A DNA stretch of 64,000 nt from the NCBI RefSeq assembly GCF_028649455.1, contig NZ_JAQSIO010000001.1, positions 682,001 through 746,000 of the forward strand. Reading direction: 5' to 3'. This DNA is from Curvibacter microcysteis (GTDB taxonomy: Bacteria; Pseudomonadota; Gammaproteobacteria; Burkholderiales; Burkholderiaceae_C). Position 1 is the first letter of the stretch. Each line of letters begins with the position of its first letter. The position numbers and the translations under genes were made by a program. Shown one piece after another: positions 5,419-12,567 of this stretch. The notes below the pieces were generated by a model that saw nothing but the letters and a program-made list of their open reading frames with translations, was not told the DNA's origin and searched no databases.

Positions 5419-7695
5419 ATGCCCCACACCACCTTGTTTGATCGGCTCCGCGCACGGCTGCGTGGCGCCCCCCTGGGCACCGCCCTGGCCCTGAGCGCCT
5501 GGCTGTTGACCGCCCCCGCCGTGGCCCAGCTGGACCTGCGCCCCGGCGCCCACAGCCCGGCCCGCGCCCTCCAAAACGCCGCCAGCGCCAGCGTGACCAC
5601 CCCCCGTGTGCAAGCCGAACTGGTGGCCCTGGCACCCCAGGGCGTGGGGCCAGGCCAGCCGCTGTGGCTGGGCCTGAGCATCACCCACCAGCCCGGCTGG
5701 CACACCTACTGGAAGAACCCTGGCGACTCCGGCCTGCCCACCCAACTGAGCTGGCAGCTGCCTGCCGGCCTGAGTGCCGGCGAGATTGAATGGCCGGTGC
5801 CGCACAAGATCCGCATCGGCCAATTGGCCAACCTGGGGTACGAAGGCACGGTGTTGTTGCCGGTGCCGGTGCAGGTCGCGCGCCACTGGCAGGCCCAGGG
5901 CGGCGCGGTGCCCATCCGCCTGCACGCCGAGTGGCTGGTGTGCCGCCAGGAATGCATTCCCGAACAAGCCGACCTGGCGCTGGACCTGCCCGTGGCCGGC
6001 TCCACGGCGGCCCAGGCCCCGGCTTTTGCGGCCGCCCGCGCCGCCCTGCCCCAGGCCTTGAGCGGCCCGCACAGCGCCCGCGTGGACGGCCAGACCTTGA
6101 GCGTGCGCATCGCCGGCCTGCCAGCCACCTGGCGCGGCCAGCCACTGACGCTGTTCCCTGAAGAACCCGAAGTGCTGGACATTGCCGCGCCCAGCGCCGC
6201 GCGCTGGGACGGTGCGGTCTGGACCGCCGAGGTCCCGCTGTCGGCGCAGCGCAGCAGCAGCCCCGGCCAGCTCGGTCTGGTGTTGCCCAGCCCGCAAGCC
6301 GGCGGCGTGGCCTACCGCGCCCAGGTGAGCGTGCAAGGCGAGTGGCCCGCCGTGGCCGCCGCCAGCACGGTGTCGCCCGCGCTCAGCGCCGCCCTGGCGG
6401 CCAACCAGTCGGCCGCCAACACGGCCGCCCCTTCCGACCCAGCAGCCACGCCGGTAGGCGCCCTGGCCTGGGCCTTGGCCTTGCTGGGCGCGCTGGTCGG
6501 CGGCTTGGTGCTCAACCTCATGCCCTGCGTGTTCCCGGTGCTGGCCATCAAGCTGCTGAGCTTTTCGCGCCACAGCGGTGCCGAGGGCGCGCGCGCCCTG
6601 CGCCTGCAAGGCCTGGCCTACACCGGCGGCGTGGTGCTGTCCTTTGCCGCCCTGGGCGCCCTGATGCTGGCTTTGCGCGCTGGCGGCGCGCAGCTGGGTT
6701 GGGGCTTTCAGCTGCAGTCGCCCTGGGTGGTGGCGGCGCTGGCCGCGCTGTTCACCGTGATCGGCCTCAACTTGGCCGGCCTGTTCGAGTTCGGCGCCTG
6801 GCTGCCCAGCCGACTGGCCAGTGCCCAGGCACGTCACCCGGTGGCGGACGCCGCGCTGTCGGGCGTGTTGGCAGTGGCCATTGCCTCGCCCTGCACCGCG
6901 CCTTTCATGGGCGCCTCGCTGGGCTTTGCGGTGGCCTTGCCGGCCGCCCAGGCCTTGGCGATTTTTGTCGCCCTGGGTCTGGGCATGGCCCTGCCCTACC
7001 TGGCCGTGGCGGTGCTGCCTGGCCTGAGCCAGGTCCTGGCCCAGCGCCTGCCCAGGCCTGGAGCCTGGATGGAGACCTTCCGCCAGTTGATGGCTTTTCC
7101 CATGTTTGGCACCGTGGCCTGGCTGGTCTGGGTGCTGGGCCAGCAAAGTGGCATCGATGGCGCGGGCTCGCTGCTGGGCCTGCTGGTGGCCCTGAGCGCC
7201 CTGGCCTGGGCCCTGAACCGCCCGGGCCGCAGCCGCCTGTACTTGAGCGGGCTGTGCGCCGCCTTGCTGCTGTGGCTGGCTTGGGTGCTGGGGCCCAACC
7301 TCAACCTGGCGCCCGAAGCCCCGGTGGGCAGCGCCAGCCCCTCCGCCGAATCCGGTTGGTCCCCCTGGTCCGAAGCGCGCGCCCAGGCGCTGTTGGCCGA
7401 GGGGCGGCCCGTGTTCATCGACTTCACCGCGGCCTGGTGCGTGACCTGCCAGGTCAACAAACGCGGCACGCTGGCCAACCCGGCCCTGCTGAAAGACATG
7501 GCCGATCAGCGCGTGGCCTTGCTGCGCGCCGACTGGACCCGGCAAGACCCCACCATCACCCAGGCCCTGAAGGCCCTGGGCCGCAGCGGGGTGCCGGTTT
7601 ATGTGGTGCTGCGCCCGGGCCAAGCGCCCGTGGTGCTGTCCGAACTGCTGAGCGTGGGCGAGGTGCGCCAAGCCCTGGCCCTGCCCAACACCTGA
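5419..7695 (+). CDS. dsbD: Thiol:disulfide interchange protein, DsbD/ScsB type
   Basis: A 758-residue inner-membrane reductant conduit that moves electrons from cytoplasmic thioredoxin to the periplasm. A signal peptide ends near TAPAVAQ. A periplasmic N-terminal domain with a Cys pair (C175 and C179, CRQEC) resembles ScsB more than classical E. coli DsbD. Eight or so membrane helices follow, with the redox cysteines in NLMPCVFP (C370) and ASPCTAPF (C492). The C-terminal thioredoxin-like domain has CVTC (C674-C677). The start was set at the ATG at 5419 because the upstream in-frame sequence lies inside the preceding gene. A separate small thioredoxin-like gene follows within 25 bp and is a plausible partner. 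DsbD is the safe family name; the ScsB subtype is an inference. Confidence 0.9.
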   Translation: MPHTTLFDRLRARLRGAPLGTALALSAWLLTAPAVAQLDLRPGAHSPARALQNAASASVTTPRVQAELVALAPQGVGPGQPLWLGLSITHQPGWHTYWKNPGDSGLPTQLSWQLPAGLSAGEIEWPVPHKIRIGQLANLGYEGTVLLPVPVQVARHWQAQGGAVPIRLHAEWLVCRQECIPEQADLALDLPVAGSTAAQAPAFAAARAALPQALSGPHSARVDGQTLSVRIAGLPATWRGQPLTLFPEEPEVLDIAAPSAARWDGAVWTAEVPLSAQRSSSPGQLGLVLPSPQAGGVAYRAQVSVQGEWPAVAAASTVSPALSAALAANQSAANTAAPSDPAATPVGALAWALALLGALVGGLVLNLMPCVFPVLAIKLLSFSRHSGAEGARALRLQGLAYTGGVVLSFAALGALMLALRAGGAQLGWGFQLQSPWVVAALAALFTVIGLNLAGLFEFGAWLPSRLASAQARHPVADAALSGVLAVAIASPCTAPFMGASLGFAVALPAAQALAIFVALGLGMALPYLAVAVLPGLSQVLAQRLPRPGAWMETFRQLMAFPMFGTVAWLVWVLGQQSGIDGAGSLLGLLVALSALAWALNRPGRSRLYLSGLCAALLLWLAWVLGPNLNLAPEAPVGSASPSAESGWSPWSEARAQALLAEGRPVFIDFTAAWCVTCQVNKRGTLANPALLKDMADQRVALLRADWTRQDPTITQALKALGRSGVPVYVVLRPGQAPVVLSELLSVGEVRQALALPNT

Positions 7696-7719
7696 GTCCT
7701 TCTCCCCCCCGTGCCCACC

Positions 7720-8052
7720 ATGACCGCTGAACTGCGCTATTCCCCCCAAGCCCCCAGCCGGGCGGATGTCGACACCTGGCCTGGCGCCACGCTGCTGCAG
7801 TTTGGCACCGACTGGTGTGCCCACTGCCAGGCCGCGCAAGGCCCGGTGATCGAGGCCCTGGCCGCCCGCCCCGGGCTGCGCCACCAGTTGGTGGAAGACG
7901 GCAGTGGGCGCCCCCTGGGCCGGTCTTTTGCCGTGAAGCTCTGGCCGACCTTGATCGCGCTGGTCGATGGGCAGGAAACCGGCCGCCTGGTGCGCCCCAC
8001 CGACACCGCCACCGTGGCACAGTGGCTGACCCAGGCGCTGCCGCCGGCCTGA
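7720..8052 (+). CDS. Small thioredoxin-like protein
   Basis: A 110-residue single-domain thioredoxin-fold protein with the active site WCAHC (C33, C36) and the family cis-Pro region (LWPTLIAL). It has no signal peptide, so it is predicted to be cytoplasmic. It follows dsbD by 24 bp and probably shares its transcript, so it may feed electrons to DsbD, but that is an inference. The ATG at 7720 is chosen; a GTG at 7711 is a possible alternative. The CAHC dipeptide differs from the usual CGPC of thioredoxin, which would shift its redox potential. Confidence 0.85.
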
Positions 8053-8180
8053 AGCCCAGCCAAACCGGCACCGCGGCCAGGTCGACCCAGCGGTGCAGGG
8101 CAGCGACAAAATGCGCATCGCCTGACTTGGTGCAAGAAAGCGCCAGGGCCAGCCCCGGGCGCTGCTGCGACAATCGCAGG

Positions 8181-9326
8181 ATGAGCACCTCTGCCGCCCC
8201 CACCACCGCCACCAGCAGCCGCTTTGCGCCGCTGCAAAACGACACCTTCTTGCGCGCCTGCTGGCGCCAGGCCACGGACCACACGCCGCTGTGGCTGATG
8301 CGCCAAGCTGGCCGCTACCTGCCGGAGTACGTGGCCACCCGGGCCAAGGCTGGCAGCTTCATGGGCCTGGCGACCAACACCGACTACGCCACCGAGGTCA
8401 CGTTGCAGCCGCTGGAGCGTTATGCCTTGGACGCGGCCATCCTGTTCTCCGACATCCTGACCGTGCCCGACGCCATGGGCCTGGGCCTGTCTTTCGCGCA
8501 GGGCGAGGGCCCGCGCTTTGCCAGCCCGGTGCGCGATGAAGCCGCTGTGGCCGCGCTCGAGGTGCCCGACATGGACCGCCTGCGCTATGTGTTCGACGCC
8601 GTGACCAGCATCCGCCGCGCCCTGAACGGCCGCGTGCCGCTGATTGGTTTCTCGGGCAGCCCCTGGACCCTGGCCTGCTACATGGTCGAAGGCAAGGGCA
8701 GCGACGACTACCGCCTGGTCAAGTCCATGCTGTACAGCCGCCCCGACCTGATGCACCGCATGCTAGAGGTCAACGCCGACTCGGTGGCCGCCTACCTGAA
8801 CGCCCAGATCGAAGCCGGCGCGCAAGCGGTGATGATTTTCGACAGCTGGGGTGGGGTGCTGGCCGACGGCGCCTTCCAGCAGTTCAGTCTGGCCTACACC
8901 GAGCGCGTGCTCAAGCAACTCAAGCGCGAACACGACGGCGTGGCCATCCCGCGCATTGTGTTCACCAAGGGCGGCGGCCTGTGGCTGGACAACATGGCCG
9001 CCCTGGACTGCGAGGTGCTGGGCCTGGACTGGACGGTGAACCTGGGCCAGGCCCGCGCCCGCGTGGGCGGCGCCGTGGGAGGCCCGGGCAAGGCCTTGCA
9101 GGGCAACATCGACCCCAATGTGCTGTTTGCCCCGCCGGCCCAGATCGCCACCGAGGTGGCGCGCGTGCTGGACAGCTTTGGCACCCCGCACCTGGACCCC
9201 AGCACCACCGGCCCGACCCACATCTTCAACTTGGGCCACGGCATCAGCCAGTACACCCCGCCGGAGCATGTGGCGGCCCTGGTCGAAGCCGTGCACACCC
9301 ATTCGCGCCGCCTGCGCGGCGGCTGA
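8181..9326 (+). CDS. hemE: Uroporphyrinogen decarboxylase
   Basis: A 381-residue cytoplasmic enzyme that removes four carboxyl groups from uroporphyrinogen III to give coproporphyrinogen III in heme synthesis. The N-terminal signature [15 protein letters not shown] and the later [16 protein letters not shown] and FDSWGG motifs are intact. The length is a little over the usual 350-360 because of a short Ala/Thr/Ser-rich N-terminus ([13 protein letters not shown]). A T-rich terminator hairpin follows at 9363-9394, after which the repeat region begins. The neighbouring gene across that region is priA. Confidence 0.97.
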
Positions 9327-9362
9327 GTCCCGTGGGCCCACAGGCCCAGCCTGCACCGAACA

Positions 9363-9394
9363 CCGCCACCGGCCACGGCCGCTGGCGGTTTTTT
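9363..9394 (+). terminator. Rho-independent terminator after hemE
   Basis: The arms CCGCCA (9363-9368) and TGGCGG (9383-9388) enclose a GC-rich inner stem and are followed directly by six T residues. It is placed 36 bp after the hemE stop. Confidence 0.8.
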
Positions 9395-9455
9395 CGTGCC
9401 TCTTGACGCCTGCCGGGGTCGGCCAAAGCCCAAAATCAAGAGCACGTCAAGAGAC

Positions 9456-9797
9456 TTGTGCACAATTTTTCTGGTGCGGTGCACCACGGTCCCAGCGCCA
9501 GACGCAAACACCGAGAGAACTCTAAGTCATTGATTTATATGACTATTTGTTTTTGCCGATTTTCCAGGCAATCTAAGAAAAGCCTTGTGGGACAAGGCTT
9601 GCGCGCGGCTCAGGGGCAGATGTCAACAAAGTTATCCACAGCTTTTGTGAATTTCCGTAAATCCCCCTCAAAATCAAGGACTTAGCGTCGGCGTGGCGCC
9701 CATCGGTCACCTCTCTAGCCCGCTGGGTCAGCGTGTCAGCACCCGACGAACGCGAGGCACCGGTTCGCCGTCCAAAGTGGCGCCCGGGCCGCCTCAG
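9456..9797 (+). repeat. Repeat unit 1 of a three-copy, ~352-bp DnaA-box repeat array
   Basis: The first and most diverged unit. It opens with the self-complementary TTGTGCACAA (9456-9465), one mismatch from a DnaA box. The AT-rich motif TAAGTCATTGATTTATATGA is at 9523-9542. A perfect 9-bp inverted repeat with a 3-base loop lies at 9580-9600 (arms AAGCCTTGT and ACAAGGCTT). The perfect DnaA box TTATCCACA is at 9632-9640, followed by GTGAATTTCC (9647-9656) and AATCAAG (9672). No convincing gene is seen here. Confidence 0.8.
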
Positions 9798-10149
9798 TTA
9801 TGCACAGAAGCACGCCCCTAGGTTTTCCAAACACCTGCAGCGGTTTTTTCACAGGGAAGGTTTTGAAGCACCGCTAAGTTGTTGATTTATATAGAAATCA
9901 AACACTGCCCAATAAATAAGCAATCTGTCAGAGGCCAAGGGAGACAAGGATTTGGCCTGCAACCCGCCTGGCTATCCCCAAAGTTATCCACAGAAACCCG
10001 GGATGGTGTGAATTTCCCAGTGGAATCAAGCACTTGGCACACATTGCCACCAAGCCACCTGAAGCGGACAAGTCTGTGGACAGCTTGTGCAAGGGGCGGG
10101 ACAAGTCCAAGTCCAATTTGGTGCATGGGCGAATTCGCGGCGCGCTTAC
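9798..10149 (+). repeat. Repeat unit 2 of the DnaA-box repeat array
   Basis: The elements are in the same order and spacing as in unit 1: TTATGCACA (9798-9806), TAAGTTGTTGATTTATATAG (9875-9894), an inverted repeat with GGCCAA and TTGGCC arms (9933-9957), TTATCCACA (9984-9992), GTGAATTTCC (10008-10017) and AATCAAG near 10024. Corresponding elements lie 342-361 bp from those of unit 1, mostly 352. Confidence 0.85.
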
Positions 10150-10360
10150 TTATGCACAAAATTCGCTGGCCTGGTTGAAGGTGGCGGAACCGACAAAAAC
10201 GCGAGCCAAAGTGCTACTGAATCCCGATAAGTTGTTGATTCATATAGACTTAAGTTGGATGATCAATTTTTAAGCAAATCAGCCAAGCCCTTGTCACACA
10301 AGGCTTTTGTCTGTGTCGAGACACTCTATCAACAAAGTTATCCACAGAAATGCTGAACAC
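10150..10360 (+). repeat. Repeat unit 3 (partial) of the DnaA-box repeat array
   Basis: The third copy carries TTATGCACA (10150-10158), TAAGTTGTTGATTCATATAG (10228-10247), an imperfect hairpin AAGCCCTTGT/ACAAGGCTT (10285-10305) and TTATCCACA (10338-10346), followed by CACTTGGC as in unit 2. The unit stops about 100 bp before the priA start, so it lacks the GC-rich tail of the other two. Confidence 0.85.
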
Positions 10361-10461
10361 TTGGCGCCAAGCTGCCAAATCCAGCACTCAGCGCGCATCC
10401 CCTGAACAGATCCCCTCCCCGTGGCGGGCACAAGCGCGCCGCTGACGCACAATGCCAGCCC

Positions 10462-12567
10462 ATGCATCACCGGCTTGCCGTCGTGGTCCAGACGCCCGCG
10501 CACAGCGGCCTGTCTGGCCCCCTCACCTACCAAAGCCCCGAGGCCCTGCCCCCGGGCACCTTGGTGCGGGTGCCCCTGGGCAAACGTGAAACCCTGGGCG
10601 TGGTGTGGCCGGTGGCCGAGCAGGACCTGGACACCGAGGGCGTGACCGAGCGCCCAGTCGCCGGTGTGCTGGCCGGCTTGCCCCCGCTGGGGCCCGCCTG
10701 GATGCGCCTGGTGAGCTTTGCGTCGCGTTACTACCAGCGCTCGCTCGGCGAGGTAGCGCTGGCCTCGCTGCCGCCCCAGTTGCGCGAATTGGGACCGGAG
10801 CAACTGGCGCGGCGCCTGAAGCGCCCCCAGGCGGCCGCCCCCGACCCCGCCACACCAACGCCAGCGGGCCTGGCGCTGACCGCCGAACAGGCCGAGGTCT
10901 GCGCACAGCTTGAACAGCACCCAGGCCCGTTTTTGCTGTTTGGCGCCACGGGCAGCGGCAAGACCGAGGTCTACCTGCACGCCGTGCAGGCCCTGCTGGA
11001 GCGCGACCCGAGCGCACAGGCCCTGATCATGGTGCCCGAGATCAACCTCACCCCCCAGTTGGAAGAGCGCTTTCAGGCCCGCTTTGCGCCGCGCTGGGGC
11101 GTCCAGGCCGTGGTGTCGATGCACAGTGGCATGACCCCGGCCCAGCGCCTGAAGAGCTGGCTGGCCGCCCACAGCGGCCAGGCGCGCATGGTGCTGGGCA
11201 CCCGCATGTCGATCTTTGCGTCCATGCCCGGCTTGCAACTGATCATCGTGGACGAGGAACACGACCCCAGCTACAAGCAACAAGAAGGGGCGCGCTACTC
11301 GGCGCGCGACCTGGCCGTGTACCGGGGCCAGCAAGAAGGGGCCAAGGTGCTGCTGGGCTCCGCCACGCCCTCGCTGGAGAGTTGGCACCACAGCCGGCCC
11401 AGCGCCGAGGGCGGGCGGTACCAGCGCCTGCTCATGCCCACCCGGGTGGGGGCGGCCGCCGACGCCGGCCTGCCCCGGGTGCGCCGCGTGGACATGAACC
11501 GGCAAAGCAAGGGCACGGTGTTCTCGCCCCAGTTGGTGAGCGCCATGCAAGAGCGCGTGGCGCGCGGCGAGCAGGTGATGGTCTTTTTGAACCGGCGCGG
11601 CTACGCCCCGGTGCTGCACTGCAATGACTGCGGCTGGAAAAGCGAGTGCCCGCATTGCAGCGCCTTCCGCGTCTTCCACCGCATTGACCGCACCCTGCGC
11701 TGCCACCACTGCGGCTTCACCCAGGCGGTGCCGCGCGCCTGCCCGGACTGCGGCAACCTGGACATCGCGCCGCTGGGCCGGGGCACGGAGCGCTTGGAGG
11801 AGCAACTGGCCGAGCTGATGAGCGAGACCTTGCGCCCCGACGGCCAGCCCGCGCGCATCGCCCGCATCGACGCCGACAGCACCCGGGCCAAGGGCGCCCT
11901 GGAGAGCCAGTTGGCCCAAGTCCACGGGGGCGAGGTCGACGTGCTGGTCGGCACCCAGATGATCGCCAAGGGACACGACTTCCGCCGGGTCACCCTGGTG
12001 GCGGCCATCAACCCGGACGGCGCGCTGTTCTCCAGCGACTTCCGTGCGCCCGAACGCCTGTTTGCCCTGCTCATGCAGGCGGCCGGCCGGGCCGGGCGCG
12101 ACGCGGCCTTTGTCAGTGCGCAAAAAAGCGAAGGCGAGATGTGGGTGCAGACCTTCTACCCCACGCACCCGCTGTTCGAGGCGCTCAAGACCCACGACTA
12201 CCCGGCCTTTGCTCAGGCCCAGCTCGAAGAGCGCGAGCAGGCCGGCATGCCGCCGTTTTCCTTCCAGGCCCTGGTGCGTGCGGAAGCGCGCACCCAGGCG
12301 GTGGCGCAAGGTTTTCTGAACAGCGCCAGCGCGGCCGGCGCCGAGCTGGAGGGGGCCAGCCAGGTGTTTCGCTTCTCGGCCGTGCCCATGACGATTCAGC
12401 GCGTGGCCAACATCGAGCGCGCCCAGATGCTGATCGAATCGCCCTCGCGGGCCGCCCTGCAACGCTTTCTGGCGCAGTGGCAAGCCGTGCTGCACGCCAC
12501 CCGCGCCGCGCCCGAGCACAAAGGCCTGATCCGCTGGGCGGTGGATGTGGATCCGCTGCTCATTTGA
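10462..12567 (+). CDS. priA: Primosomal protein N' (replication restart helicase PriA)
   Basis: A 701-residue superfamily-2 DNA helicase that recognises stalled forks and reloads the replisome. The N-terminal 3'-end-binding domain is followed by the helicase core with Walker A GATGSGKT (161-168) and a DEEH box (264-267). Cysteine pairs for two zinc ions begin at C387 (CNDCGW..CPHC, CHHCGF..CPDCG), and later helicase motifs include GTQMIAKGHDF. The length is normal. The ATG at 10462 begins MHHRLAVVVQ, where family similarity starts. Its upstream region is the DnaA-box repeat array, so its transcription may respond to DnaA; this is an inference. Confidence 0.97.
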   Translation: MHHRLAVVVQTPAHSGLSGPLTYQSPEALPPGTLVRVPLGKRETLGVVWPVAEQDLDTEGVTERPVAGVLAGLPPLGPAWMRLVSFASRYYQRSLGEVALASLPPQLRELGPEQLARRLKRPQAAAPDPATPTPAGLALTAEQAEVCAQLEQHPGPFLLFGATGSGKTEVYLHAVQALLERDPSAQALIMVPEINLTPQLEERFQARFAPRWGVQAVVSMHSGMTPAQRLKSWLAAHSGQARMVLGTRMSIFASMPGLQLIIVDEEHDPSYKQQEGARYSARDLAVYRGQQEGAKVLLGSATPSLESWHHSRPSAEGGRYQRLLMPTRVGAAADAGLPRVRRVDMNRQSKGTVFSPQLVSAMQERVARGEQVMVFLNRRGYAPVLHCNDCGWKSECPHCSAFRVFHRIDRTLRCHHCGFTQAVPRACPDCGNLDIAPLGRGTERLEEQLAELMSETLRPDGQPARIARIDADSTRAKGALESQLAQVHGGEVDVLVGTQMIAKGHDFRRVTLVAAINPDGALFSSDFRAPERLFALLMQAAGRAGRDAAFVSAQKSEGEMWVQTFYPTHPLFEALKTHDYPAFAQAQLEEREQAGMPPFSFQALVRAEARTQAVAQGFLNSASAAGAELEGASQVFRFSAVPMTIQRVANIERAQMLIESPSRAALQRFLAQWQAVLHATRAAPEHKGLIRWAVDVDPLLI

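Follow-up and report, generated by a model that had tools for sequence, protein, structure and literature searches.

The spacer between hemE and priA in the 64,000-nucleotide stretch of Curvibacter microcysteis DNA analyzed here (the window) carries an array of six DnaA boxes in three diverged units, and this array is confirmed as real. On the basis of its motifs, each unit is predicted with good confidence to be a DnaA-IHF control element belonging to the datA/DARS class. The favored explanation, which we place somewhat above an even chance, is that the three form a tandem set of control modules; in this lineage they would most likely be datA-like, a sign of action held with just under even confidence. 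DnaA-inactivating and DnaA-reactivating loci have been worked out in E. coli, and the module is filed here as a variant within the datA/DARS class, a member of neither type. The features of the array are as follows:

9327..10461, + strand: hemE-priA spacer with the array, AT-richer than its flanks (ORF list, Pfam, composition)
9456..9464, + strand: unit 1 distal DnaA box (box 1), TTGTGCACA, seven of eight scored positions, one mismatch (motif)
9523..9535, - strand: unit 1 IHF consensus, TAAGTCATTGATT on the + strand (consensus match)
9583..9600, no strand: unit 1 palindrome CCTTGTGGGACAAGG (sequence)
9620..9628, + strand: unit 1 weak -12 box, ATGTCAACA, 5/8 (box score)
9632..9640, + strand: unit 1 core DnaA box (box C), TTATCCACA (exact motif)
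9646..9654, - strand: unit 1 inverted +14 box, 6/8 (box score)
9798..9806, + strand: unit 2 distal DnaA box, TTATGCACA (exact motif)
9875..9887, - strand: unit 2 IHF consensus, TAAGTTGTTGATT on the + strand (consensus match)
9935..9952, no strand: unit 2 palindrome, a less regular variant of that of unit 1 (sequence)
9972..9980, + strand: unit 2 weak -12 box, CTATCCCCA, 6/8; the +14 place scores 3/8 (box score)
9984..9992, + strand: unit 2 core DnaA box, TTATCCACA (exact motif)
10150..10158, + strand: unit 3 distal DnaA box, TTATGCACA (exact motif)
10228..10240, - strand: unit 3 IHF consensus, TAAGTTGTTGATT on the + strand (consensus match)
10289..10306, no strand: unit 3 palindrome CCTTGTCACACAAGG (sequence)
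10326..10334, + strand: unit 3 weak -12 box, CTATCAACA, 6/8; the +14 place scores 4/8 (box score)
10338..10346, + strand: unit 3 core DnaA box, TTATCCACA (exact motif)

The array fills the spacer between hemE (ending at 9326) and priA (starting at 10462), the flanking genes carrying Pfam URO-D and PriA domains. A preliminary description had placed the boxes at 9456, 9632, 9798, 9984, 10150 and 10338, all six on the + strand and with in-unit spacings of 176, 186 and 188 bp, and each of these values is borne out. Exact copies of TTATNCACA number five in the 64-kb window against 0.17 expected, with none of 100 shuffles reaching five, so the enrichment over a shuffled control that had been named as a check is present. 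The whole 4.82-Mb draft of this organism holds 28 exact boxes versus 12 matches to the reversed pattern; its densest group is formed by the five in the array, the next closest pair lying 786 bp apart.

The three aligned units are 47–52% identical, and the repeats are old and diverged. Columns identical in all three units make up 16 of the 18 box columns versus 60 of the 219 others (Fisher p=3e-7, columns being treated as independent), and the total of 76 identical columns exceeds that in 20 shuffled sets (mean 27, maximum 36). The boxes are thus better kept than the rest of the repeat, both in the window and over 133 related modules, which is the reverse of the outcome that was to have spoken against the proposal. 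The idea of a tandem DnaA-binding module with boxes kept by selection is supported, DnaA binding itself being predicted from the motif. The preliminary description was right about the boxes but overlooked two further elements: each unit has a full IHF consensus, and boxes flank the core at -12 and +14. Each unit consists of a DnaA box, 74–85 bp, a full IHF consensus, 102–103 bp and TTATCCACA; all three match completely the consensus TAAnnnnTTGATW, as it appears in the accessible portions of PMC10950094 and PMC8682772. An IHF-beta-like gene is present, scoring at the cut-off of its family.

The palindrome CCTTGTGGGACAAGG, or variants of it, occupies a fixed place in each unit and recurs in relatives from the genus to which the window belongs. 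The unit 1 and unit 3 palindromes, together with an RNA fold of unit 3 that is better than that of shuffles (z -2.56), might suggest a structured RNA or a transposon-like repeat, which we nevertheless consider highly improbable: units 1 and 2 fold like shuffled sequence (z -0.59 and +0.99), an Rfam search of the spacer gave no match at E up to 1 (the whole window yielding five tRNAs only), and the best-kept letters over the 133 related modules are those of the protein-binding motifs. Three terminator-like sites are found in the spacer versus 1.6 in shuffles.

Conservation within the module falls on box 1, the IHF site, two palindromes (TGCC…GGCA and CCTTG…CAAGG) and the core GATATCAACAAAGTTATCCACAGAAA..CTGGAT. 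Exact distal boxes located 140-245 bp before 198 box-C sites number 113, and 96 of these lie at 185–189 bp; the remainder comprise 12 at 197–199 bp and single ones at 165, 176, 179, 180 and 244 bp, whereas no exact box on the opposite strand occurs in that interval. Distal boxes with one mismatch add 42 at 185–191 bp and 13 elsewhere. The 176-bp spacing of window unit 1 is about one helical turn short, and the rarer spacings are mostly about one turn off (10.5-bp period, R=0.73, n=17), with a nominal p of ~1e-4 that is inflated by relatedness: the off-mode spacings are non-independent, and among the 12 at 197–199 bp several seem to come from a single Acidovorax-like group. TTGATT usually lies 102-103 bp before box C, and the IHF consensus is present in 70 of 95 rows against 0.5 expected from shuffles. 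With C allowed at the first position it is found in 103/133 type-A, 25/26 type-B, 35/36 other and 21/23 outside-family sites, and in its strict form in 69/133, 4/26, 28/36 and 11/23, respectively; these counts are not independent proof because the search pattern already contained TTGAT, whereas the 70/95 shuffle test was made without it. The rigid box–IHF–box layout amid diverged filler points to a putative looped nucleoprotein complex. A distal box of the form TTATCCCCA occurs in 23 of 39 "other" sites; this group (L183, L198, L208, L241-L245 and others) has spacings of 188-190 bp and mostly a good -12 box, and TTATCCCCA is possibly a co-evolved DnaA site.

The surroundings of TTATCCACA were scanned by scoring the eight box-consensus positions at every offset in the four site groups. 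The direct-offset maximum is -12 in all four (5.8–6.6 of 8 versus a mean near 2), and the inverted +14 offset ranks first or second in each (4.4–6.6 of 8); the inverted offset -11 peaks too, but a box there would share letters with the -12 box, and the two are not independent. Neither the -12 nor the +14 peak is seen around 24 other boxes of the Curvibacter genome. A -12 box of at least 6/8 is present in 107/133 A, 26/26 B, 33/36 other and 23/23 outside-family sites, and a +14 box of that quality in 28/133, 10/26, 8/36 and 21/23 (background 0.4%). Three loci (L181, L184, L185) were excluded from "other" because their matches were judged fortuitous, and L206, likewise marked for removal, stayed in B; the B group is impure, in that four of its 26 sites carry the TTATCCCCA distal box and L208 adjoins priA.

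These offsets bear upon the possibility of a DARS-type site, at which ADP-DnaA, its molecules on box C and on the +14 box facing each other head-to-head, would lose its ADP with the help of IHF, such that ATP-DnaA rises. In E. coli DARS1 a direct box at -12 and an inverted one at +14 (7 and 7 of 8) surround TTATCCACA, so that the offsets of the module agree with the DARS1 core to the base. Furthermore, both flanking boxes reach at least 6/8 in 21 of 23 sites of other families, hemE-priA copies included, although these sites were picked by eye; a set of 20 regions was moreover chosen for look-alike sequence, so that its strong cores represent a biased sample. The +14 place together with these good flanking boxes argues for reactivation. 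Against this, the inverted box is weak in most type-A sites of the family and in two of the three window units (6, 3 and 4 of 8 in units 1, 2 and 3), just 28 of the 133 type-A sites reach 6/8, and even DARS2 has no more than 5 and 5 at -12/+14, with higher scores elsewhere. IHF involvement has been reported for DARS2, and the module has an IHF site; yet this site and box 1 are both found beyond the -12 box, in a datA-like order, and the array is ori-proximal. We regard a DARS-type site as a possible, if rather unlikely, reading of the array.

According to the available text of PMC5742627, datA is made up of two boxes of high and one of low affinity plus a single IHF site, its essential boxes all pointing in one direction, while DARS has a three-box core of fixed spacing with box I opposed to boxes II and III. 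By motif, the datA set of two high-affinity boxes and one low-affinity box in the same direction plus one IHF site is found in all three units. The order is likewise that of E. coli datA, the DDAH or DnaA titration site (strong box, IHF in the same polarity, strong box, all in one direction, with a weak direct box), and box 2 of datA also has a direct -12 box, of 6/8. Differences exist as well. Box, IHF site and box lie at 0/72/162 in datA versus 0/84-85/186-188 in the array (0/74/176 in unit 1), and the 162-bp interval contrasts with 176, 186 and 188 bp in the window and mostly 185-189 bp in relatives; the inverted box beside datA box 3 is at +12 rather than +14. The gene context also differs, there are one to several tandem modules, and a sister locus exists.

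The accessible parts of the DARS2 papers PMC4245941 and PMC8682772 deal with gamma-proteobacteria near E. coli, whereas PMC10380432, in the portion available, describes DARS-like sequences in many proteobacteria and the corresponding part of PMC5742627 extends them to beta-proteobacteria. A literature search on DARS in beta-proteobacteria or Burkholderiales returned no DARS among the matches listed, which is weak evidence as subscription papers lie outside its scope, and a DARS relative of Burkholderiales may already be listed in further sources. Searches on DnaA boxes with hemE or priA or in Comamonadaceae gave Laribacter and Cupriavidus genome papers among the matches listed, and those on the DnaA reactivating sequence with Burkholderia gave secondary-chromosome and Vibrio papers among theirs.

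The best 80 hemE relatives, 79–87% identical, include Limnohabitans, Acidovorax, Comamonas, Rhodoferax and Hydrogenophaga. The stretch 3′ of hemE contains at least two exact boxes in 66 of these loci, one in 2 and none in 12 (for L087, among these 12, the contig simply stops short), and every exact box found there is on the + strand. TTATCCACA is present once in 51 of the 80 spacers, twice in 15, four times in a single one (L060) and is absent from 13. The number of tandem copies varies by lineage, five relatives of the window's genus having two or three modules. Where the hemE locus lacks boxes, the module pattern is still matched in eight of the 12 genomes: five copies adjoin a hemE–priA pair (L173, L174, L177, L178, L180), two adjoin priA with hemE not found within 3 kb (L171, L175), and the eighth is L176. 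The gene upstream in L171 contains a thioredoxin-like domain and matches DsbD below threshold. One Limnohabitans genome (G003) has two hemE-like loci, L051 and L177, which are 96% identical over 1,100 bp and align only there; priA and the module are beside one of them only. In the family as a whole, TTGAT-N82–107-AGTTATCCACA matches in 336 of 399 genomes, at hemE–priA or the sister locus, and is lacking in 63, while the reversed-pattern control gave 0 among the matches listed. Within the wider order 76 of 200 genomes match versus one control match, some of these surely by chance; seven of the 200 belong to the family, and all seven match.

The last box C ends 115 bp upstream of priA, a distance that would suit regulation of priA or hemE in cis by DnaA and IHF. 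This explanation is nonetheless improbable. The element stays where one or other of these genes is not found beside it: hemE is not found within 3 kb at L208 and L212, as at L171 and L175, and at L186 and L187 the element lies 3′ of hemE with priA not found in 3.1 kb, the next gene in L186 being a nucleotidyl transferase. In addition, a scan of the window's spacer revealed no sigma-70-like promoter, and the sister locus adjoins other genes.

This second site lies in many genomes between divergent xseA and exbB-like genes (identified by Pfam for L172) and has the consensus TTGCCCACA-AAG-TTATCCACA-G…TGTGGGT. Its flanking boxes retain the CCACA end that is absent from the type-A -12 box, although by letter count they are hardly better. 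A sister-type core, TTCTTCACA-AAG-TTATCCACA-GATTT-TGTGGGTGA, is found in the Curvibacter genome upstream of an exbB-like gene (C3:165601, - strand; L014 around 1501), together with an IHF-like site, TAAGCCCATGATT, one letter off the consensus. It was spotted by eye among the 28 box loci, a stricter sister-site pattern giving no match in this genome, and xseA was not found in its 3-kb locus. Among the chosen loci of other families, nine have hemE and priA (L217, L223, L288–L291, L294, L295, L303), five have xseA and exbB (L297, L298, L301, L302, L305) and five have priA (L296, L304) or xseA (L299, L300, L307) as a single gene, the rest being without all four; the +14 box scores 6–8 in seven of the nine hemE–priA loci and 3 in two.

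Eighteen genomes, chosen mostly for matches on a long first contig among the matches listed, were used for map positions, with OS-4 as a complete-genome record. In nine chosen genomes of one or two contigs the distance from dnaA to the array is 8.1–14.3% of the chromosome, and in thirteen that to the sister is 38.2–48.3%; the array distances omit G231 (~13.5%), G363 (~13%) and G173 (5.4%), where size is uncertain or contigs are many, and the sister entries include G303 and G304, not script-classed as B, and G142, accepted on its xseA and exbB neighbors. Besides OS-4, the 17 family genomes include five with the sister only, four with the hemE–priA site only and seven with both among the matches listed. 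In the Curvibacter draft the array is 430 kb from dnaA, of 4.82 Mb. E. coli datA, at 10.1%, resembles the array in its ori-proximal place, roughly a tenth of the chromosome away from the origin. In other families, the distance from dnaA is 1.8, 2.6 and 24.7% for three copies next to priA and 23.8–33.8% for three xseA copies. These positions may be inherited with the neighboring genes, which would explain part of the pattern.

Clustered DnaA boxes, an IHF site and AT-rich DNA are also characteristics of oriC, and the array was considered, and rejected, as oriC or a second origin, to which we now attach almost no likelihood. Twenty 20-kb stretches sampled from the complete genome of C. testosteroni show a skew that stays negative as far as 18 kb and turns positive in the next 2-kb step; it is positive also in the stretches sampled between 160 kb and 1.86 Mb, comes close to zero at 2.04 Mb and is negative beyond. 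The array, at 336 kb, is thus well inside one arm and not at the skew minimum. Runs such as TACTACTACTACTAT, which we take to be DnaA-trio-like unwinding elements, occur near a DnaA box 391 kb (Curvibacter), 317 kb (C. testosteroni) and 480 kb (OS-4) from the array, that is, elsewhere in all three genomes, whereas none is found in 81 spacers, the window's included. The skew of OS-4 is too weak by itself to place the origin, as is that of the Curvibacter genome, which changes near 1,083 kb. In the latter, the segment C1:1,082,650-1,083,500 (L047 about 7650-8500) contains, twice and 786 bp apart, a DnaA box followed by a TACTATTACTACTAT or TACTACTACTACTAT run; situated 391 kb from the array and ~38 kb from dnaA, it is the better candidate and likely oriC. 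The usual picture is of oriC beside dnaA, from which this genome differs, its dnaA-rpmH spacer (L049 2562-2901) having one exact DnaA box only.

We return to the datA-like reading. IHF, to judge from its full consensus, would introduce a sharp bend between box 1 and box C and thereby bring DnaA on box 1 into contact with a few DnaA molecules assembled on box C and on the weak box at -12. The resulting DnaA–IHF complex is predicted to change the amount of free active ATP-DnaA. If the action is datA-like, it would titrate DnaA or promote ATP hydrolysis, blocking early re-initiation, and extra tandem copies would add dosage. Such action is favored by the strong boxes in the same direction, the degenerate inverted box in two of the three units and copying soon after initiation. 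The sign of the effect on DnaA is given as datA-like with just under even confidence, slightly reduced because, by letter count, the core of the sister is hardly stronger than that of the array. The analysis shows motifs, geometry, conservation and map positions, and from these the protein binding, the loop, the effect on DnaA and its sign are all surmised.

The xseA-exbB sister, in the late-replicating half of the chromosome, may constitute a second, perhaps opposing, site. We tentatively suggest, at odds a little lower still, a pair of IHF-gated DnaA-control sites, one early (hemE-priA) and one late (xseA-exbB), derived from a single ancestral module with a datA-type arm and a DARS-type core, the early copy having been amplified in tandem in particular lineages; the pair would read the ori/ter copy ratio, set the timing of initiation and be widespread in Burkholderiales. 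The fixed-geometry module present at either site in 336 of the 399 family genomes, together with its mapped partner, offers concrete sites for deletion, and the natural copy-number variants provide a way to learn if initiation is set by how many such sites are present.
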